Below are positions 27,158 to 37,131 of a stretch of DNA of 64,000 nt, in pieces (within the stretch, counting starts at the first letter, position 1; every line of letters starts with the position of its first letter). The notes beneath the pieces are model-generated. The model saw only the letters and a program-made list of their open reading frames with translations, made no database searches and was not told the DNA's origin. This DNA is from Armatimonadota bacterium (GTDB lineage Bacteria > Armatimonadota > Fimbriimonadia > Fimbriimonadales > Fimbriimonadaceae): assembly GCA_017303935.1 (NCBI GenBank), contig JAFLBD010000001.1, forward strand, positions 682,001 through 746,000. The letters run 5' to 3'. The position numbers and the translations under genes are program-made.

Positions 27158-27799
27158 TTATCGAGCGTTTCGTCGTCGTCGGACCAAGCCAACCAAGCCG
27201 AGGCCGAGAGCGGCCATGCTCATTGGTTCTGGAACCGTGCTGACGGTCAGCTGCGACTGTCCGCCTTGAGCAGAAGTCTGGTAGAAGGTCACAACCTTGT
27301 TCAAGCTTGCGCCTTGGTTTGCTGCGCCAAAGTACTGAGCAGCGTAGTTGAGCGAGCTGGAATTGACGTTCCAAGCCTTGAAGGTTGGGCCAACAGCGCT
27401 GAATGCGGTGCCGCCATTGTAAAGTGCCGACCAGATTGCCAATTGCAGACCAGCTTGTTGATCCTTCGAAGTGGCTGTATCGAAGTACTTGGCAATGATT
27501 CGAGCAGCCTTCGCCTGGTTGGTGTTACCGTTCTGGCTGAGGGTCAATGAGCTGTAGCCGTGGAAAGAGTGATCCAAGAAGCTTGTGGCGTCTGCGCAGT
27601 AGGTTTTGAGGGTCGCTGAACCATTGGTGAAAAGCAGTGCGCCAACCTTGACGTTGACTGGTGCCTTTGGCATCACCTTGATGGTTGCTGAATTGGCGTT
27701 GGCCAACTGCATGCCAGTGAACTTCAGTTGGGTCGTTGCATTCGCGGCAGCGCCAAGGGCGACTGCGGCAACGACTAAGGCAGGGGTTATGATTCGCAT
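27158..27799 (-). CDS. PEP-CTERM exported protein
   Basis: 213 residues. Signal peptide MRIITPALVVAAVALGAAANA, an Ala/Asn/Ser-rich central region with a Thioester-domain-like feel (LKTYCADATSFLDHSFHGY, QAGLQLAIWSALYNGG), and the sorting tail VPEPMSMAALGLGLVGLVRR then RRNAR. The AIWSALY stretch resembles TQXA/Cys-Gln thioester domains of surface adhesins: a Cys (YCAD) and a Gln (LQLAIW) are both present, so an internal thioester is possible but unproven. Confidence 0.82.
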   Translation of the reverse strand: MRIITPALVVAAVALGAAANATTQLKFTGMQLANANSATIKVMPKAPVNVKVGALLFTNGSATLKTYCADATSFLDHSFHGYSSLTLSQNGNTNQAKAARIIAKYFDTATSKDQQAGLQLAIWSALYNGGTAFSAVGPTFKAWNVNSSSLNYAAQYFGAANQGASLNKVVTFYQTSAQGGQSQLTVSTVPEPMSMAALGLGLVGLVRRRRNAR

Positions 27800-28244: not shown

Positions 28245-29225
28245 ATGAAATACCATCTACTTCTTTTAGCACTAGGGATCGGATCTCTTGTTTTCGGTGC
28301 ATTCGCGGCTGACCCAAACAGAACTCCGACGTCAAGGGCCGAGCAGCTTTTTGCTCGGGCAACCGCCGATGATTTCTTGGGTGATGCGGCCTGTGCCGAT
28401 TGCCATCCAGATAAGAGCACTGCTTTTCCTAGTTCGCTCCACGCCGCTCCGATGAAGAATTCGAAGCTCCCTCTGAATCAGCAGGGTTGCGAAGGATGTC
28501 ATGGCGCAGGCGGGATTCACCAGTCGGAAGACAATCCTGACGTCGTTGCCTTTAAAAAGTGGAACGCAAAGGACTCTTCCGCCGCCTGTCTCAGATGTCA
28601 CGACGCAACGCTGAGTGACGCTCACTGGAAACAATCAGGCCACGCCAAAGCTGGCCTTTCTTGCGTTTCCTGCCACCAAATTCACCCAGATTCCTCGCCA
28701 ACACCTGAAAAGGGCGACGTTCGCACTAGCGCCGCGAGTAATCCGGCCGACGTAACAAAGATCGCCACGAAGTCGAGCCACGGGCTGTTAAAGGCCTCTG
28801 AAGCGAAGCTTTGTGGACAATGCCACGCGCCGCAATTGGCCCAGTTCCGATTGACCAGCCACCATCCAGTGCCAGAAGGGCAAATGCTTTGTAGCAGTTG
28901 CCACGACGCGCATCCATCCAAGACGATGAAGGGAAGAGTGGAAACGGATAAGTCGGCTTGCGTCACTTGCCACCGAGAGCAAGCAGGTCCATTCGTATTC
29001 GAACACGATCCGGTTTCCATGGGAACTGGTGACGGTTGCGGCGAATGCCATCGACCTCACGGCTCGAACAATCCAAACCTGTTGTCCTCATTCTCTCGCG
29101 GGATGTGTGCCCAATGCCATACCGAAAAGTTGGCCGCTCACTATCCTGGCCGAACTTGCTGGACCGCTGGATGCCACGTTGCTCCACACGGAAGCCAGAC
29201 CGACGACAAATTCTTACAACCATAA
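28245..29225 (+). CDS. Decaheme c-type cytochrome, MtrA/DmsE family
   Basis: 326 residues from ATG 28245 (GGAG six bases upstream). Signal peptide MKYHLLLLALGIGSLVFGAFA. Ten heme sites: nine CXXCH (CADCH, CEGCH, CLRCH, CVSCH, CGQCH, CSSCH, CVTCH, CGECH, CAQCH) and a final CX4CH (CWTAGCH). The end, VFEHDPV...GECHRPHGSNNPNLL, is characteristic of DmsE/MtrA proteins. In Shewanella these plug into an MtrB barrel and carry electrons across the outer membrane. The barrel gene follows at 29243. The binding site of the tenth heme, CX4CH, is unusual for MtrA. Confidence 0.93.
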   Translation: MKYHLLLLALGIGSLVFGAFAADPNRTPTSRAEQLFARATADDFLGDAACADCHPDKSTAFPSSLHAAPMKNSKLPLNQQGCEGCHGAGGIHQSEDNPDVVAFKKWNAKDSSAACLRCHDATLSDAHWKQSGHAKAGLSCVSCHQIHPDSSPTPEKGDVRTSAASNPADVTKIATKSSHGLLKASEAKLCGQCHAPQLAQFRLTSHHPVPEGQMLCSSCHDAHPSKTMKGRVETDKSACVTCHREQAGPFVFEHDPVSMGTGDGCGECHRPHGSNNPNLLSSFSRGMCAQCHTEKLAAHYPGRTCWTAGCHVAPHGSQTDDKFLQP

Positions 29226-29242
29226 AAGGAGGCGCAAAGAAA

Positions 29243-30901
29243 ATGGAAACTCTATCAACACGAACCCGATTACCGATTCTTGGCGCATTGGTCGTGTGCA
29301 TGGGCCTGGCATGGGCTCAAGAAGCACCACCTGCCGAAACTCCAGCAGAAGAACCTGAAGAGACTGCGGAAGTCAAGCCAACTAACCATTTGGTTGAAAT
29401 TGGATACTCCGCTTGGACATCCCGCGGCAACTTCCAAAAGTGGTTGCAGTACGGAAACCCATCGAAGGGACTCGGAATTCGTCGCCTCGAACTGCTCTTC
29501 CCTGGAAAGGACTTTGCCAAGTTACGGCTTGCCGGAGATCTGAACAGGGATTCAGTGGCCGAGGGCACTCTTAGGCTAGATCAAGGTAGAGGATTGATCA
29601 AGTTCAGCGCGAGCCGAAACTTGACCCACGATCCAAGCCCAGTCCTGACCGAAAGAGGATTCCGAAACAACTACGAGCTTGATGCCACTTATATGCTTGG
29701 CCGAGACACCAGCGTGTACTTCCAGCATCGACAGCAGTCCAGGCAAAAGGATCACGTCGCTCCATACGACGATGCTCGAACAGTAACCAAAACCTACAAT
29801 TTTGGCGTTGACACCATCGTTAGCGGAGGAAACCTTGGAGTCCAGTTCGGCGACAGTCGGCATTACGACCGTACGGGTGTTCTGCCAAAGACAGTTCTTC
29901 ACACCACTCGAGTGAACTACGCGCATCCCGTTGGCGAAACTGCCAACCTCGAAGGAAGCGCGACCTACACCCGCATCGAGCAGCCTGCCAAGCCCGTCGG
30001 CGAGGTTCGGTCGCTCAAGTTGAGTGGTGATTGGGCTATTAATCCGCTCAGTACGATCTTCATCACCGTCCGGCGCGATGATTTGGACTTGCCAATGGTG
30101 GCAAACAACGCCGTCCGTCAGCGATTCCTCACTTCGGTGAAGTTCGCTCAGACATTGGGGGTAGGCAACCTGACATTGGGTTATCAGCGCAAGAGTTCAG
30201 AACGATTCCGCAATGACCGGACCTATGTCGATGTGCCTACCTGGGACAACGTGGAGGCAGCACTAAACGGCGTCTTGGGCAATGGCCTTCGCTACACCGT
30301 CAAAGGGTCGTGGAACCACTTGCAAAAGCAGCCCACGTTCCAAACCGAAGACGATTCTCGCGGATTGTATTGGGATGATCGCCTCAAGTTCAGCGTCTCG
30401 GTCCGCGGCGGAAACGACAGATTCAACGGATACGCTTCTTACGGCCTGCGGTTCGACCAGAACTCAGCCAGAGACGTGGAGATTAAGACTCACACCATCG
30501 CGCTCGGTGGGAACTACAACGTTTCAACTGGCGCCGATCTTTACTTCGAACTGCTGAACGAGACTTCAGCCGCAAGAGGTTTGGTGAGCGAAACGGGTCT
30601 GTCGCTGGACTCCTTCTTCCCATCCTGGACCAGCATCGCGCTGGGATATTCGCAAGCGATGGGCGAAAAGGACGCCTGGAGCATTGGATTCAACCATACG
30701 TTTGCCCGTAACGACAATCCAGTGTTTGAATACGGCGGCAACATTCGCATGACCCAGCTGACGGGTCAATTCAATCACACATTTTCACCGACTGAAACGC
30801 TCGGAATCGTGGTTTCACCTTGGCGATACGACGACAAGATCGACTCTTCAGCACGGTACCGAGCTTCAGTGGTTAGCGTTAGCTACACGCTGAAATTTTA
30901 G
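29243..30901 (+). CDS. Outer-membrane beta-barrel, MtrB/PioB family
   Basis: 552 residues from ATG 29243, behind AAAGGAGG; a longer in-frame reading from 29036 overlaps the cytochrome gene and is rejected. Signal peptide (METLSTRTRLPILGALVVCM to AWAQ), a Glu/Pro-rich linker, then alternating amphipathic strands with aromatic ends and a C-terminal Phe (SVSYTLKF), as expected of an outer-membrane barrel. MtrB/PioB barrels sheath the decaheme cytochrome; the adjacent gene order supports this. It is shorter than Shewanella MtrB (~680) and lacks its N-terminal CXXC motif. Confidence 0.85.
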   Translation: METLSTRTRLPILGALVVCMGLAWAQEAPPAETPAEEPEETAEVKPTNHLVEIGYSAWTSRGNFQKWLQYGNPSKGLGIRRLELLFPGKDFAKLRLAGDLNRDSVAEGTLRLDQGRGLIKFSASRNLTHDPSPVLTERGFRNNYELDATYMLGRDTSVYFQHRQQSRQKDHVAPYDDARTVTKTYNFGVDTIVSGGNLGVQFGDSRHYDRTGVLPKTVLHTTRVNYAHPVGETANLEGSATYTRIEQPAKPVGEVRSLKLSGDWAINPLSTIFITVRRDDLDLPMVANNAVRQRFLTSVKFAQTLGVGNLTLGYQRKSSERFRNDRTYVDVPTWDNVEAALNGVLGNGLRYTVKGSWNHLQKQPTFQTEDDSRGLYWDDRLKFSVSVRGGNDRFNGYASYGLRFDQNSARDVEIKTHTIALGGNYNVSTGADLYFELLNETSAARGLVSETGLSLDSFFPSWTSIALGYSQAMGEKDAWSIGFNHTFARNDNPVFEYGGNIRMTQLTGQFNHTFSPTETLGIVVSPWRYDDKIDSSARYRASVVSVSYTLKF

Positions 30902-30945
30902 TCAAAAGGAATAGATAGCAAGATTATTCACTAAGGGAGAAAACC

Positions 30946-32409
30946 ATGAAATCTAGGTGGTTCATTACATTAATCGCAATCGTCCCCGTTGCAGCTGGCT
31001 TATTAGCGTTGCAGAGTTGCGGTGGCGAGGGTGGTCCAACGTCTGGTTCAGGCGGCGGGTTACCTTCGGTATCTCAGCAATTCTTAGCTCTATTGAGTGC
31101 AGACCAAGCGGGATCTTCGTACATCGGTGCCGAAGGTTGTGTTGCGGGAACTTGTCACGGCGGATCTGGCGCACGCGCTGATGTGTCCGTGTACCAGCAC
31201 TGGAAAGACACAAAGCACGCTGATAAAGGCGTGAATTGTGAGCGATGCCACGGGCCTGGAAGCAAGCACGCCGCCAACCCAACCAGCACCAACATCCTCA
31301 ACGGTCCAAAACTGACTTCGCCTGTCGTTTGCGCCCAGTGCCACGGTCCAATCTATGACCAATGGAACTTCTCGCAGCACAGCAAGATCGTCGTGGACCC
31401 AGTAGAGGACCTGATCGTTAACCCAACGACCTACGGCAAGAATAGTCGATGTGGCTCCTGCCACAGCGGATTGTTCCGAACCGAGTTGAACGAAGGCGGA
31501 GTCGATATCGCCAACGTCAACAACTCCGTAATCGTTGAAATCGGCGAACGCACCTTGGATACGGTTCCCCATACCGCCAACTGCGTAACTTGCCACAATC
31601 CTCACAAGAACACAGGCAACTTGACCGACACTGGTGATGAAGTTCAACTTCGCCACAAGACGTTCAATGACGTGACCACGCCAATCGGCCCTGGTCAACC
31701 TGCCTCTTCGACAACCACATTCGATCACATCTGTGCTCAATGCCACAACGGCCGTGGTGCAAACCCAGCTGATAGCGCATTGAACTCTGGAACATCGCGC
31801 CCTAACATGCACGATAGTAACCAGTACAACATGTTGATGGGATTGGGCGGCGTCGAAGCCGGTGGTCCAGTAACTCCATCGAATACGGCACACGCCTCGA
31901 TTCCTGGACAATGCTCGAAGTGCCACATGCCAAGCTCAACTCATAGCTTCACCGTAAGCTACGACAAGAGTTGCTCGCCTTGCCATACCGCTGCCGACGC
32001 AGCTGCTCGCGTTAACACAACAAAGAGCGACATCGTTGACAAGCTGTTTGCACTGCGAACCCGCATGGAAGAATACGCTCTTGCCCACTATGGCAACCGC
32101 GACTTCTGGGACTACACTTCCATTATCACCGCTGAATACGGAACAGGTACCGGTCCTAACCAGTCCACAGTGCCAATCCAACTGAAGCGAGCACGACACA
32201 ACTACTACTTCATCATTCGAGATCGCGGCTATGGCGTACACAACGCGCCTTATGCACGGCACTTGCTGACAATCGCAAACATTAACATGGAAGCGATTGA
32301 CGCTCCAGCAATCTCTGCCTCTCGATCATTGACGACATCGTTCAATGAAAAGCTGAAGGTCATTGAACAAGATCTTGCGAGAGCAAGAAAGGCTGAATTA
32401 GAGAAATAA
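30946..32409 (+). CDS. Octaheme c-type cytochrome lipoprotein
   Basis: 487 residues. Lipoprotein signal peptide ending LALQSC (Cys25 region). Eight heme sites: one CX4CH (CVAGTCH) first, then CERCH, CAQCH, CGSCH, CVTCH, CAQCH, CSKCH and CSPCH. The C-terminal ~120 residues form a helical domain without hemes, with HNYYFIIRDRGYGVHNAPYA, a pattern seen in the NrfA/multiheme superfamily. By position (after cytochrome and barrel) and lipid anchor it is a good candidate for the cell-surface partner, filling the role of MtrC/OmcB without obvious similarity. Surface exposure is inferred. Confidence 0.85.
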   Translation: MKSRWFITLIAIVPVAAGLLALQSCGGEGGPTSGSGGGLPSVSQQFLALLSADQAGSSYIGAEGCVAGTCHGGSGARADVSVYQHWKDTKHADKGVNCERCHGPGSKHAANPTSTNILNGPKLTSPVVCAQCHGPIYDQWNFSQHSKIVVDPVEDLIVNPTTYGKNSRCGSCHSGLFRTELNEGGVDIANVNNSVIVEIGERTLDTVPHTANCVTCHNPHKNTGNLTDTGDEVQLRHKTFNDVTTPIGPGQPASSTTTFDHICAQCHNGRGANPADSALNSGTSRPNMHDSNQYNMLMGLGGVEAGGPVTPSNTAHASIPGQCSKCHMPSSTHSFTVSYDKSCSPCHTAADAAARVNTTKSDIVDKLFALRTRMEEYALAHYGNRDFWDYTSIITAEYGTGTGPNQSTVPIQLKRARHNYYFIIRDRGYGVHNAPYARHLLTIANINMEAIDAPAISASRSLTTSFNEKLKVIEQDLARARKAELEK

Positions 32410-32508
32410 ACTTCTCTAACATCGCATGAATCAGCCTGGTCGGCGGGAGTACTTTTTAGAAGGAAACCGCCGGCCCAATGTAGAACTAATGAGTAAGAGG
32501 ATTCCTGA

Positions 32509-34923
32509 ATGAACAATTCCATGACTTTACTTCCAACTCCCGCGCCAGCCTGGGCATTACAGCTCGGGGAATTTGGCAAGTTCTTGGTGGTCATAACGTG
32601 TTTGCTCTTCATCGTTTCCTTTGCATCTCTAACGTTTCTAAAGACATCGACATTGGCGTCAAAAATTGGCGCATCGTTTTTCAATGCAGGCGTCGCCGGA
32701 CTCTGCTCAATTTTCGCGATCTTAGGCACGCTCTTCGTCAACAATCAGTTTGAGTTCGAGTACGTCTGGTCTCACGCCGATAAGTCCAATTCCTGGCCAT
32801 ATCAAGTCGCTGGAATCTGGTCCGGACAAGAAGGATCATTCCTTCTGTGGGCGCTTTGCGCCGGACTTTTTGGAGTTCTCGTCGCGAGGAATGCTGGCGA
32901 GTTTAAGAAGCCGTTTCTGCAGGTCTATGGACTGTTTCTCGCTGCGCTCACCGGCATCCTCGCTTACGAATCTCCGTTCAATTTGAACCTCATCGACGGG
33001 AAGACAATCGCCAATCCTGCCGATGGCGTTGGGCTTGCACCATCTCTACAAAACTACTGGGTCACCATCCATCCGCCGGTGATCTTCCTTGGATTTGGCT
33101 CGCTTACCGCCGTATTTGCATTAGCCGTTGCGGCACTAATCCGGCGCAGCTATACAAACTGGATTCCGATCGTGCGACCGTGGGCGATTATCTCGTTGAC
33201 CTTGGTCGGACTTGGGCTCTGCATGGGCGGATTCTGGGCATACGAAACCCTGGGTTGGGGTGGATTCTGGATGTGGGATCCGGTTGAAAACGTCAGCTTT
33301 GTGCCTTGGTGTTTCATGGCGGCTTTCGTTCACGGAGTGCTCGTTCAGTCGGCACGCAAGAAGTGGCAATTCACTAATATCCTGCTCGGTGGTTTGCCGT
33401 TCCTTGCGTTTGTTTACGGAACCTATCTCACTCGCTCAGGAATCCTTAGCGAGACCAGCGTCCATAGCTTCGCTGAAATGGACCGATCGGCTCTCAAGAT
33501 TATGATGAGCATCCTCGGCGTAACCTGCCTTGGGTTCTTTGGACTTTTGATCGCGCGCTTCATTAAGGATCGTGATAAAAAGCCAGCCGAAACTCCAAAG
33601 GTAAGTGGTACCAGTCGTGAGAATTTCTACCGCTACGGCATCATTTTTCTCCTTGGCCTTGGCCTTGCGACAGGGATCGGAATGAGCGTGCCACTTTTCA
33701 TGGCTCTCTCCGGACAAAAGACAAAGGTGGTCGAAGAGCACCAATATCACATGGTTGTGCCCTGGCTCTTTGTGCCGATCATGTACCTGCTGGCAATCAC
33801 ACCTTTCGTCTCTTGGAAGTCGGTGCCAATGACAGAGATTTTCAAGAAGTTCTACACGATAATGTGTATCACGATCGGCATTACAGGAACTGCAATGCTT
33901 GTAATGGTTGTCAGCCCATTTTCGAAGGTCGCTGAGCTGCAAAGAGTTGTAAGTTTTCCTGCCGGTTTAAGCGTGAAGGGATTGGGCTGGGTTCTCTTCC
34001 TGACCGCCATGTGCTTGTTGGTCATTGTTGGCAACACCTGGCGACTATTCGAGGTGCGAAAAGCAAAGAAACTTGCTTGGGGGCCGTTCGTCTCTCATAT
34101 AGGACTTGCGGTATTGATGGTTGGTCTGATCATTTCGAGAGGTTTTGAACGACACTTAACAGCGATGGTGATGGATGGACATCCAGGTCAAGCCTTCACT
34201 TATGCCATTAAGTACCGTGGAATGACATCCAATAAATATGACCGCAACAACAAGGTCATCTTTGATATCTTTGATGCACATAAAGGTGAAAAACCACTCT
34301 TCAGCATTGCACCTGGCCTGTACTATGTTAAGGGACAAGACGGTACTGAAAATCCGATGATCTGGCCTGATATAAAGCGCCACCCGTACTACGACTTTTA
34401 CTTCACCTTGAACCCACCTCAATCGGAAGGAACCACGCCGATCGAGTTCAAAGTTGGCGATTCTAAGACAGTGGATCAGTTCACGATCACCTACCTCGGG
34501 ATGAAGAGGGAAGGTGAAGCTGGGATGGGCGGCACCAAGTTCGGAGCAGAGCTACGGGTCAACGACGGCACCAAGACCTACACGATTACGCCGAAACTTG
34601 AGCTCAGCTTAGATTCTTCTGGACCGGTTCACCACGATGCGAACTTGGACAAGTCAATCAAGGTCTCACTGGTTTCGATGAATGCTGCCAATAACTCGGC
34701 AACACTCCAGTTCAACTTGGCTAGCCCGATCTATCCGGTCGAGATCTATCACAAGCCACTCACGATTTTCGTTTGGTTGGGCACGGCAATCATGGCGCTC
34801 GGTGGATTCATGTCCGCGCTCTATCGCCGCGCACCAAAGGCTACTTCAGACGACAGTTTAGAGCCTGAACAAGGCTCTGATGAGAATCGCAAGGGAACGA
34901 AAAAACTTGCACCCATTCACTAA
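32509..34923 (+). CDS. ccmF: CcmF/NrfE-type heme lyase of cytochrome c maturation system I
   Basis: 804 residues with about 15 membrane segments. The tryptophan-rich heme-handling WWD motif is clear near residues 249-262 (GWGGFWMWDPVENVSFVPW), with flanking His residues in IHPPVIFLGF and FVHGVLVQ. A periplasmic beta domain precedes the last helix (about 560-760). CcmF attaches heme to apocytochromes. Other ccm genes are absent from the window, so this may be a dedicated copy for the surrounding cytochromes (inference). GAGG-ATTCCTGA precedes ATG 32509. Confidence 0.93.
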   Translation: MNNSMTLLPTPAPAWALQLGEFGKFLVVITCLLFIVSFASLTFLKTSTLASKIGASFFNAGVAGLCSIFAILGTLFVNNQFEFEYVWSHADKSNSWPYQVAGIWSGQEGSFLLWALCAGLFGVLVARNAGEFKKPFLQVYGLFLAALTGILAYESPFNLNLIDGKTIANPADGVGLAPSLQNYWVTIHPPVIFLGFGSLTAVFALAVAALIRRSYTNWIPIVRPWAIISLTLVGLGLCMGGFWAYETLGWGGFWMWDPVENVSFVPWCFMAAFVHGVLVQSARKKWQFTNILLGGLPFLAFVYGTYLTRSGILSETSVHSFAEMDRSALKIMMSILGVTCLGFFGLLIARFIKDRDKKPAETPKVSGTSRENFYRYGIIFLLGLGLATGIGMSVPLFMALSGQKTKVVEEHQYHMVVPWLFVPIMYLLAITPFVSWKSVPMTEIFKKFYTIMCITIGITGTAMLVMVVSPFSKVAELQRVVSFPAGLSVKGLGWVLFLTAMCLLVIVGNTWRLFEVRKAKKLAWGPFVSHIGLAVLMVGLIISRGFERHLTAMVMDGHPGQAFTYAIKYRGMTSNKYDRNNKVIFDIFDAHKGEKPLFSIAPGLYYVKGQDGTENPMIWPDIKRHPYYDFYFTLNPPQSEGTTPIEFKVGDSKTVDQFTITYLGMKREGEAGMGGTKFGAELRVNDGTKTYTITPKLELSLDSSGPVHHDANLDKSIKVSLVSMNAANNSATLQFNLASPIYPVEIYHKPLTIFVWLGTAIMALGGFMSALYRRAPKATSDDSLEPEQGSDENRKGTKKLAPIH

Positions 34924-34938
34924 GGAACATCAACAAAA

Positions 34939-35262
34939 ATGAAAAGAATCACATCTATCTCTCTTCTTCTCGGTTTGGGCGCGATGGCTCTCGCACTCGG
35001 CACGATGGGCAAAGTGTTCAATGACACTTACAATGTCAAGGCTGACTCGAATCTTGGAAAAGCCAAGTGCGCCGTCTGCCACGCTAAGACAACTGGTGGC
35101 GCGCTGAACCCATACGGCACCGACTTGAAGGCAGCATTGAACGGCAGTAAGAAGCTCACAAGTGCAATGTTGAAGAGCGTTGAAGGCAAGGACTCGGATG
35201 GCGATGGTCGCAAGAACATCGACGAGATCAAGGCCGATAAAATGCCTGGCAAGAAAGACTAA
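34939..35262 (+). CDS. Small periplasmic monoheme cytochrome c
   Basis: 107 residues with a signal peptide (MKRITSISLLLGLGAMALALG) and a single CAVCH heme site (about residues 44-48). The C-terminus has a calcium-loop-like DSDGDGRKNIDE. No distal Met is obvious by position; NPYG and later Met residues exist. It could shuttle electrons between the inner-membrane CbcL-like protein and the decaheme cytochrome. It lies 15 bases after ccmF. Confidence 0.8.
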   Translation: MKRITSISLLLGLGAMALALGTMGKVFNDTYNVKADSNLGKAKCAVCHAKTTGGALNPYGTDLKAALNGSKKLTSAMLKSVEGKDSDGDGRKNIDEIKADKMPGKKD

Positions 35263-35361
35263 CCGAATACATATTCCAGAGTCACAGCTACGCTTCTGGG
35301 CACTGTGACTCTGGAACCCAAACCGTCAAAGCCCCAGAATCTATCCCAAATTTCACCTTTT

Positions 35362-37131
35362 ATGATCAAAATCAGACCTACGAGAAAGCTCCTCCTCGGC
35401 ATCCTTCCACTCCTGATCGCGATCACACCATTTTTCTTCGCTTTTGCCCAAGCGCAAGAGCCTCCGGCAGAGGAGGCCGTTCCAGTTTCCGAAGCGAATC
35501 AAACATGTCTCGGTTGCCACGACCCGGCAAATGAAGGTGCCCCTGGTGTCCACATGGCGGCTCTTCAAGGCTCGCCCCACGCGTCAAACGATTGTACGGA
35601 CTGTCACGCCGAATTCACCGCGGATGCACCGCATACGACCGAGATGAAGAAGTCGAAGGTCGCCTGCGAAAACTGTCATCCCGATGTCGTTGAGGCATTC
35701 AATAGCTCGGCCCACGGCCAAAAAGCGGCGACAGATACCGAAGTTCCAACTTGCATCTCCTGCCACACTGCCGGTACCGATCCGCATGCGATTCAGCCGA
35801 GCAATACGCTAACAAAGAAGGCAAGAGTCGAAAAGTGCTCGCTATGCCACAACGATAAGGCGATCATGACCCGCCACGGCGTTGATCCCGAAGCAGTGAG
35901 CAGTTATGAAGCCAGCTTCCACGGTAAAGCATTTTTGAAGTTTGAGAACTCTAAGACGGCGATCTGTACCGACTGTCACACCAACCACTCGGTGATGGCC
36001 GCAACGAATCCCAAGTCGTCCACCAACGACGCCAACGTGGCCAAGACCTGCGGACAAGCGGGTTGTCACCCAGGGGCAACTGCAAGCTTTGCCCAATCAG
36101 GATTTAGCCATCTACACATCACGATCAAAGACAATCCACTTCTTTCAGCCATCGAGTGGTTCTTCAAGATTCTCACGTTTGGTGTGATTGGATTCCTCTT
36201 GATGGGCGTTGCGTTCGACATGAAGGCCGCGCTGTTCAGCAAGAAGCCGATCGCGGTTACTCGTCCGGTGGCGTTTACGGTGGCTGCCGCGTTCTTCTTC
36301 CTCGTTCTCTCGATCATCCTAGCAGTGCTGAAGCAGCCATACGGCTTGTACACCACGGCCGCTGCAGTCATCATGGGTGCAGCATCTGGCGCGTTCCATG
36401 TCGCCTCAAAGCCCAAGCGCGACATTGACCTTCCAGTCGAACGAAGATTCCAGCGGTTTACCGTTTCGCAACGGCTCCAGCACCTGACCTTGATGATCAC
36501 TTTCATCCTGCTGGTGCTTACCGGAATGCCAATCCGCTATCCAAACAACGATGTGATGCGAGGGGCATATCTGGCTCTGGGTGGAATGGATGTGATGCGC
36601 CTCGTCCACCGAGTATCAGCGGTCATTCTGATCATCGCTTGGATCTATCACACAATTGAACTCCTCGTCCGATGGAAGAAAGCTGGATTCTCGATGGATT
36701 CGTGGACGATGTGGCCCCGAAAGAAGGACTTCTCAGACGTGGTCGGAACAGTGAAGTACCACCTTGGAATGGCACCAGAAGAACCTGAATTCGACCGATT
36801 CCAGTTCCGTGAGAAGTTCGACTACTTCGCCGTCTACTGGGGTATGCCGATCATGGTGTTCTCGGGATTGATTCTGTGGTACCCAGTTTTCTACAGCCAG
36901 TTCCTACCAAGTATCGGGCTCCCGATCGCCTTCATTGCCCATAGCGACGAAGCGGTTCTGGCGTTCCTAACCATCGCGACGTGGCACTTCTACAACACAC
37001 ACTTCAACCCTCATCACTTCCCGATGAATCCTGTTTTCATCACAGGTGAAGTAGGAGAGAAGGATATGCAACGCGAACATCCGCTCGAATACAAGCGCAT
37101 TGTCGAAAGCGGAGAACTCCCAGAGGAGTAA
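35362..37131 (+). CDS. CbcL-like fusion: heptaheme c domain plus membrane cytochrome b
   Basis: 589 residues from ATG 35362 (GTG 35305 is an alternative). After a signal/anchor helix, residues ~48-235 carry seven heme c sites: CLGCH, CTDCH, CENCH, CISCH, CSLCH, CTDCH and CX4CH (CGQAGCH). Then come hydrophobic segments (about 262-350) and a formate-dehydrogenase-gamma/HydC-like cytochrome b domain (about 370-580), with His pairs in RLQHLTLM, LVHRVSA, IYHTIEL and ATWHFYNTHFNPHHF. The same plan is known in Geobacter CbcL, an inner-membrane quinol oxidase feeding extracellular electron transfer. It would take electrons from the quinone pool here. Confidence 0.87.
   Translation: MIKIRPTRKLLLGILPLLIAITPFFFAFAQAQEPPAEEAVPVSEANQTCLGCHDPANEGAPGVHMAALQGSPHASNDCTDCHAEFTADAPHTTEMKKSKVACENCHPDVVEAFNSSAHGQKAATDTEVPTCISCHTAGTDPHAIQPSNTLTKKARVEKCSLCHNDKAIMTRHGVDPEAVSSYEASFHGKAFLKFENSKTAICTDCHTNHSVMAATNPKSSTNDANVAKTCGQAGCHPGATASFAQSGFSHLHITIKDNPLLSAIEWFFKILTFGVIGFLLMGVAFDMKAALFSKKPIAVTRPVAFTVAAAFFFLVLSIILAVLKQPYGLYTTAAAVIMGAASGAFHVASKPKRDIDLPVERRFQRFTVSQRLQHLTLMITFILLVLTGMPIRYPNNDVMRGAYLALGGMDVMRLVHRVSAVILIIAWIYHTIELLVRWKKAGFSMDSWTMWPRKKDFSDVVGTVKYHLGMAPEEPEFDRFQFREKFDYFAVYWGMPIMVFSGLILWYPVFYSQFLPSIGLPIAFIAHSDEAVLAFLTIATWHFYNTHFNPHHFPMNPVFITGEVGEKDMQREHPLEYKRIVESGELPEE

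Follow-up and report, generated by a model that had tools for sequence, protein, structure and literature searches.

A candidate MtrAB-type electron conduit with an OcwA-like octaheme lipoprotein in an Armatimonadota bacterium

Among described porin-cytochrome conduits, MtrCAB and MtrDEF of Shewanella and the MtrAB, MtoAB and PioAB systems are close to a six-gene operon in the genome of an Armatimonadota bacterium, which lies within a 64,000 nucleotide stretch of contig JAFLBD010000001.1 (positions 682,001 to 746,000), here called the window. The operon resembles them in having adjacent genes for an MtrA-type decaheme cytochrome and a 26-strand MtrB-like barrel, an exported multiheme candidate for the cell surface, and a quinol-linked inner-membrane cytochrome. 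It probably encodes a porin-cytochrome conduit of the MtrAB/PioAB type, which would cross the envelope and connect menaquinol with the cell surface. A survey of MtrCAB lists three phyla, without Armatimonadota (PMC8805035), and the phylum is not mentioned in the text of a survey of the CbcL/MtrH/MtoC proteins (PMC6295460). MtrABC has been reported in Acidobacteriota, Desulfobacterota_B and Gammaproteobacteria metagenome-assembled genomes (MAGs) of a spring, in a paper that discusses Armatimonadota at length (PMC9671151), and there is an Armatimonadota MAG with multiheme cytochromes of unknown function (PMC11788075). Within the open-access literature, subscription papers and preprints aside, nothing was found that reports such a conduit from Armatimonadota.

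The first gene encodes, as judged from its sequence, a decaheme cytochrome of the MtrA/DmsE type, as a sequence-only reading of the locus had proposed. All ten heme motifs (nine CXXCH and one CX4CH) are invariant in an alignment of 29 sequences, and a profile of 22 sequences matches MtrA (Protein Data Bank (PDB) chain 6r2q_A) with an E-value of 2.9e-44, spanning both pentaheme halves. The tenth heme, whose CX4CH motif is a difference from the Mtr systems, corresponds in the alignment to the final heme region of MtrA. The curated cut-offs are missed: the best NCBIfam match is to the model for GSU2203 of Geobacter (NF041028; 192.6 bits, cut-off 325), while the DmsE model (TIGR03508) gives 179.8 bits, narrowly under its cut-off of 192.2. 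In a tree of decahemes, the window sequence is in a supported clade that extends across several families of the phylum and includes neither MtrA and GSU2203 nor the fused forms described below. A scan of named genomes for this decaheme found only two distant loci, in Verrucomicrobiia and Lysobacterales MAGs.

The AlphaFold2 model of the adjacent barrel has 26 strands (predicted local distance difference test (pLDDT) 86.4, predicted TM-score 0.75), and its best fold match among 350,542 PDB chains is MtrB (6r2q_B, E 2.2e-12, TM-score 0.69/0.60), against 0.49 for the next-ranked barrel. In hhalign, the barrel profile gives 98.1% (E 6.7e-14) with a set of MtrB/GSU2204-type barrels and 87.8% (E 3.3e-6) with a canonical Photobacterium MtrB, as against 0.5-2.8% with the Escherichia coli negative controls FhuA, LptD, BtuB and FadL, the E-values being those of single comparisons and the controls being single sequences. 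The barrel differs from those of the Mtr systems in its length, 552 amino acids (aa) where the Photobacterium reference has 656 aa, and in lying under the PF11854 and TIGR03509 cut-offs. There is also a likeness to the GSU2203-GSU2204 pair, since in addition to the decaheme match the GSU2204 barrel model (NF041027) weakly matches 5 of the 27 window-type barrels; unlike that pair, however, the window proteins do not reach the cut-offs, and the CXXCH carried by GSU2204-type barrels is absent from the window barrel. We conclude from profile and modelled structure that the predicted barrel is a divergent member of the MtrB family in fold and descent, below the curated family cut-offs. The MtrB/PioB homology on which the sequence-only reading depended was therefore found, by fold with MtrB itself and by profile with the MtrB/GSU2204-type barrels.

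It could be argued that the barrel is an ordinary porin, lying beside the periplasmic cytochromes of an intracellular nitrite or nitrate pathway, and that there is no conduit at all. The MtrB_PioB cut-off is indeed not reached, and several relatives of the window barrel weakly match the general Porin_4 model. That MtrB is the top fold match and the sole strong profile match among the barrels compared, with the E. coli barrels at 3% or less, makes an ordinary porin very improbable; such a barrel would not be expected to stay beside decaheme and octaheme genes throughout the phylum, and the nitrite reductase genes of this genome, NrfH and NrfA, are located elsewhere.

The third gene encodes the candidate for the cell surface. 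Its lipobox cysteine, Cys25, is invariant and stands behind a hydrophobic leader, and all 17 cysteines are accounted for, one by the lipobox and 16 by eight CXXCH or CX4CH motifs. The heme-motif cysteines and histidines are conserved throughout the alignments of the operon proteins, except in the spacing of heme 1 of this protein (window 31138-31158), where most relatives have CXXCH but the window protein and a few others CX4CH, the spacing having changed repeatedly at this one site. A profile of 24 sequences, searched against all PDB sequences, matches OmhA first (6qvm, 3.4e-13) and OcwA second (6i5b, 1.8e-12), with MccA (1.5e-6) and NrfA (about 4e-4) lower down. Foldseek, run with a weak model of the octaheme protein, likewise ranked 6qvm and 6i5b first; the former, named in the database as the undecaheme cytochrome from the S-layer of Carboxydothermus ferrireducens, we take to be OmhA. 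Like OmhA and the OcwA of Thermincola potens, the window protein is a multiheme cytochrome of the NrfA lineage with C-terminal helices, but it has eight hemes where OmhA has 11 and OcwA nine, two of those in OcwA being open, five-coordinate sites, and whereas OcwA and OmhA belong to a Gram-positive wall or S-layer, it is a diderm lipoprotein beside an MtrAB-like pair. The cap also differs in this from that of MtrCAB, which is of the MtrC/OmcA family. A diverged MtrC was considered and rejected, there being no MtrC/OmcA signature, no match to TIGR03507 in the host genome and none over the cut-off in 291 genomes of the phylum. By sequence and fold relationship, the octaheme lipoprotein is thus OcwA/OmhA-like, and a candidate surface cap and terminal oxidoreductase. 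The sequence-only reading had called it an unusual surface candidate; its candidacy is supported, and the profile matches now give it a more precise affiliation.

OcwA has been described as a relative of NrfA and MccA that acts as a terminal reductase at the cell surface; it turns over hydroxylamine and reduces nitrite slowly, with a kcat of 1 per min (PMC6703420). This raises the possibility that the octaheme protein acts mainly as an enzyme outside the cell, on a soluble nitrogen, sulphur or oxygen substrate such as nitrite or hydroxylamine, with the conduit as its feeder in the manner of DmsEF-DmsAB in Shewanella. The profile similarity to OcwA, MccA and NrfA and the activities of OcwA itself are in keeping with this, as is heme 4 (CGSCH), which has no conserved histidine nearby. 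However, the octaheme protein contains no CXXCK, the motif of the NrfA catalytic heme, and its cysteines are all taken up by the lipobox and the heme motifs; eight histidines outside the motifs are invariant in the alignment and would suffice to bis-ligate all eight hemes; and a dedicated NrfHA is already present in the genome. A mainly enzymatic role is therefore unlikely. A nitrite/hydroxylamine system as the main role of the operon was rejected on two of the same grounds, NrfHA being at its own locus and CXXCK being missing from the octaheme protein.

The conduit reading is supported by the distribution of the genes. BLAST finds the barrel in 30 of 101 near genomes, nearly all of which retain the order decaheme, barrel, octaheme protein, with CcmF, monoheme and CbcL-like genes next in many. 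This synteny is maintained across many genera at 23-37% barrel identity. Profile searches detect the barrel in 76 of the 291 phylum genomes and the octaheme protein in 61, and every one of the 61 has the barrel (Fisher p = 6e-49, shared ancestry ignored). The octaheme and barrel genes are directly adjacent in 47 of these, separated by a gap of about one gene in 12 and on different contigs in two. The linkage of the octaheme protein to the barrel is obligate across the 291 genomes, the octaheme protein never being present without the barrel, and because of this and of the synteny at such low identity, the operon is far beyond chance. The MtrA/MtrB-type conduit proposed before is supported, and the set of genes is common to many related genomes. 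One family has an extra octaheme gene (~370 aa) between the barrel and the octaheme lipoprotein (L047:10786-11898, L100:11650-12780).

The last gene of the operon provides the inner-membrane end. Besides a signal peptide, its product has seven c-heme motifs and six predicted transmembrane peaks. It matches PF01292 over the cut-off (34.8 bits), and its profile matches FdnI (1kqf_C, E 8e-9), with conserved histidines at four positions that we take to be those of the b-heme ligands of FdnI. With an N-terminal multi-c-heme region, six transmembrane segments and an FdnI-like diheme b domain, its predicted architecture is that of CbcL/MtrH/MtoC, in agreement with the sequence-only reading, although Geobacter CbcL has nine c hemes where the window protein has seven, one of them CX4CH. 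The host genome encodes menaquinone synthesis by way of futalosine. The CXXCH of the small monoheme protein is invariant in 15 sequences, its family matches are weak, and in relatives its gene usually adjoins CcmF or CbcL; it is a candidate periplasmic shuttle.

In the proposed mechanism, the CbcL-like protein would oxidise menaquinol at the inner membrane and pass the electrons through its heptaheme domain, from where the monoheme protein would perhaps shuttle them to the decaheme. The decaheme, threaded inside the 26-strand barrel, would pass them on to the octaheme lipoprotein at the outer surface. There the octaheme protein may reduce an extracellular acceptor, whether Fe(III) or Mn(IV) oxide, humics, a small molecule, an electrode or another cell. 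Gene content, homology, fold class, conserved synteny and co-occurrence are observed here; from them we infer the assembly of this complex, the surface exposure of the octaheme protein, the direction and the substrate. Decaheme and barrel would together form an electron-conducting transmembrane complex, in line with the synteny and the natural fusions described below. An arrangement of comparable composition is the Geobacter Pcc (OmbB-OmaB-OmcB), in which a porin is likewise combined with periplasmic and surface multiheme cytochromes, but these have eight hemes (periplasmic) and 12 hemes (outer membrane) (PMC4245776).

CcmF would be an extra heme lyase for the operon cytochromes. It matches PF01578 (Cytochrom_C_asm, 94.3 bits) and PF16327 (CcmF_C, 72.3 bits) over their cut-offs, though not the cut-off of the NCBIfam NrfE/CcmF subfamily, and a second CcmF is present in the host genome at C1:560 kb. 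The sequence-only reading was right in its identity; the gene is, however, an extra paralogue for cytochrome maturation and is not part of the wire. A role as a dedicated CX4CH lyase is not supported, as genomes such as G022 and G046 keep the CX4CH decaheme and have a single CcmF, located elsewhere.

The CbcL/MtrH/MtoC architecture has been reported in 15 phyla, among Fe(III) reducers and Fe(II) oxidisers alike, and its genes adjoin mtrAB or mtoAB in some genomes (PMC6295460). The combination of an MtrAB conduit with a CbcL-type feeder, earlier thought to be new, has therefore already been described, and the direction of electron flow is not readable from the CbcL-like gene. No sequence feature separates the two directions, which the sequence-only reading had rightly left open. 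The conduit could run inward, with the octaheme protein oxidising an extracellular donor (Fe(II), Mn(II), humic hydroquinone, an electrode or a partner cell), the CbcL-like protein reducing the quinone pool as proposed for Mto and Pio, and an aa3 oxidase or NrfHA serving as the sink. Homologues of the CbcL-like protein are found in Fe(II) oxidisers and are indistinguishable by sequence from those of reducers (PMC6295460), the Pio and Mto conduits use the same MtrA/MtrB pair, and aerobic respiration and NrfHA in the host are possible sinks. Against this, OcwA and OmhA are the cap's nearest relatives of solved structure, and the former has been characterised as a terminal reductase (PMC6703420). 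A large surface cytochrome is usually missing from Pio and Mto systems. Inward flow has perhaps the lesser part of the probability, and an outward conduit, from menaquinol to the surface, is moderately favoured.

Several observations weigh against a conduit of this kind, or against its importance to the host. PF11854 (MtrB_PioB) has no match in the host genome or among the 27 barrel-family sequences, and only one of those 27 matches TIGR03509 (E 0.003), so that no curated MtrB/PioB cut-off is reached. The AlphaFold model of the octaheme protein is of low confidence (pLDDT 59), and its predicted surface role consequently draws on the lipobox, synteny and remote homology. The barrel was absent by BLAST from all four other genomes of the same genus that were compared. 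The host genome has an oxidase inferred to be of aa3 type, and NrfH and NrfA with ResB/CcsA-type maturation genes form a separate locus (L108:5675-9847; G000:C3, ~445.7-449.8 kb), which would, with the absence from the four genomes, make the conduit dispensable. Cytochromes typical of a known nitrite/hydroxylamine system in close relatives would have refuted the sequence-only reading, but the NrfHA system of this genome is separate from the operon. With outer-membrane secretins also present, the host has the appearance of a diderm with a choice of respiratory routes, to which the conduit would be an accessory trait. Elsewhere in this genome are two molybdopterin oxidoreductases with iron-sulphur proteins, cytochrome b and molybdenum cofactor synthesis genes (L109:600-17302; G000:C2, ~784.6-801.3 kb), possibly for nitrate or related respiration.

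Other conduits are present in the phylum. There is a canonical pair of MtrA and MtrB_PioB (L084:6751-9943, genome G219; PF11854 345 bits, TIGR03509 269 bits) and an intact GSU2203/GSU2204 pair over the cut-off (L083:784-3510, genome G156), and on these matches several MtrAB lineages coexist in the phylum. In three genomes of the same phylum a single frame of ~975-1030 aa encodes an MtrA-type decaheme and, fused to it, a GSU2204/MtrB-type barrel (Table 1), which favours a joint function of the two; no paper describing such a fusion was found in a literature search. Downstream of the fusion, L085 and L087 have heptaheme, CcmF-like, CbcL-like and 22-28-heme genes.

What is new here is the divergent barrel, the OcwA-like cap with its obligate linkage, and the phylum-wide spread missed by standard markers. 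Since PF11854, TIGR03509 and TIGR03507 fail on this system, any survey that relies on markers of this sort would arrive at too low a count, and extracellular electron transfer, if the conduit is real, would be a common and overlooked trait of the whole phylum. It would also mean that an MtrAB-type channel can carry, in place of its usual surface cap, a cytochrome from the nitrite/sulfite-reductase lineage; such surface cytochromes had previously been seen on Gram-positive metal reducers, and the modularity of the wire would become directly testable. A more speculative proposal, on the doubtful side, is that of a phylum-wide conduit family that escapes the standard MtrB/PioB and MtrC models. 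Its NrfA/OcwA-lineage octaheme cap would be relay and extracellular enzyme at once, and certain lineages would have merged decaheme and barrel into a self-wired pore.

All six genes of the sequence-only reading are present on the + strand at 28245-37131, in an order that differs from the one it gave (Table 1). They are ~15-100 base pairs apart, and as both flanking genes, at 27158-27799 upstream and YchF from 37177 downstream, are on the - strand, the six form one isolated candidate transcription unit; a scan for promoters and terminators found nothing above chance. The most likely barrel start is the ATG at 29243, preceded by the sequence AAAGGAGG, and an alternative start of the CbcL-like gene is possible at the ATG at 35362. 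Recent foreign origin was rejected for lack of a signal in base composition (guanine plus cytosine 52.4% in the operon vs 52.7% in the 64-kb window).

Table 1. Genes of the candidate conduit operon (window positions) and decaheme-barrel fusions of the same phylum
Feature	Position	Strand	Description
MtrA/DmsE/GSU2203-type periplasmic decaheme c cytochrome	28245..29225	+	326 aa, signal peptide, 9 CXXCH + 1 CX4CH
MtrB-like 26-strand outer-membrane beta-barrel (predicted)	29243..30901	+	552 aa, without heme motif
Octaheme lipoprotein, OcwA/OmhA-like candidate surface cap	30946..32409	+	487 aa, 7 CXXCH + 1 CX4CH, C-terminal helical region
CcmF/NrfE-type heme lyase paralogue	32509..34923	+	804 aa
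Small exported monoheme protein	34939..35262	+	107 aa, one CXXCH, DSDGDG motif
CbcL/MtrH/MtoC-like inner-membrane quinol:cytochrome oxidoreductase	35305..37131	+	6 CXXCH + 1 CX4CH, FdnI-like diheme b domain
Decaheme-barrel fusions	L085:8323-11328, L087:8793-11891, L088:9346-12273		11 CXXCH, one within barrel part

The divergently transcribed gene directly upstream of the operon (27158-27799) encodes an exported protein with a PEP-CTERM-like C-terminus. Elsewhere in the phylum, other genomes encode proteins of ~640-690 aa with 28-30 CXXCH motifs near CbcL-like genes (L091:1928-3841, L085:16591-18570, L102:12231-14294).

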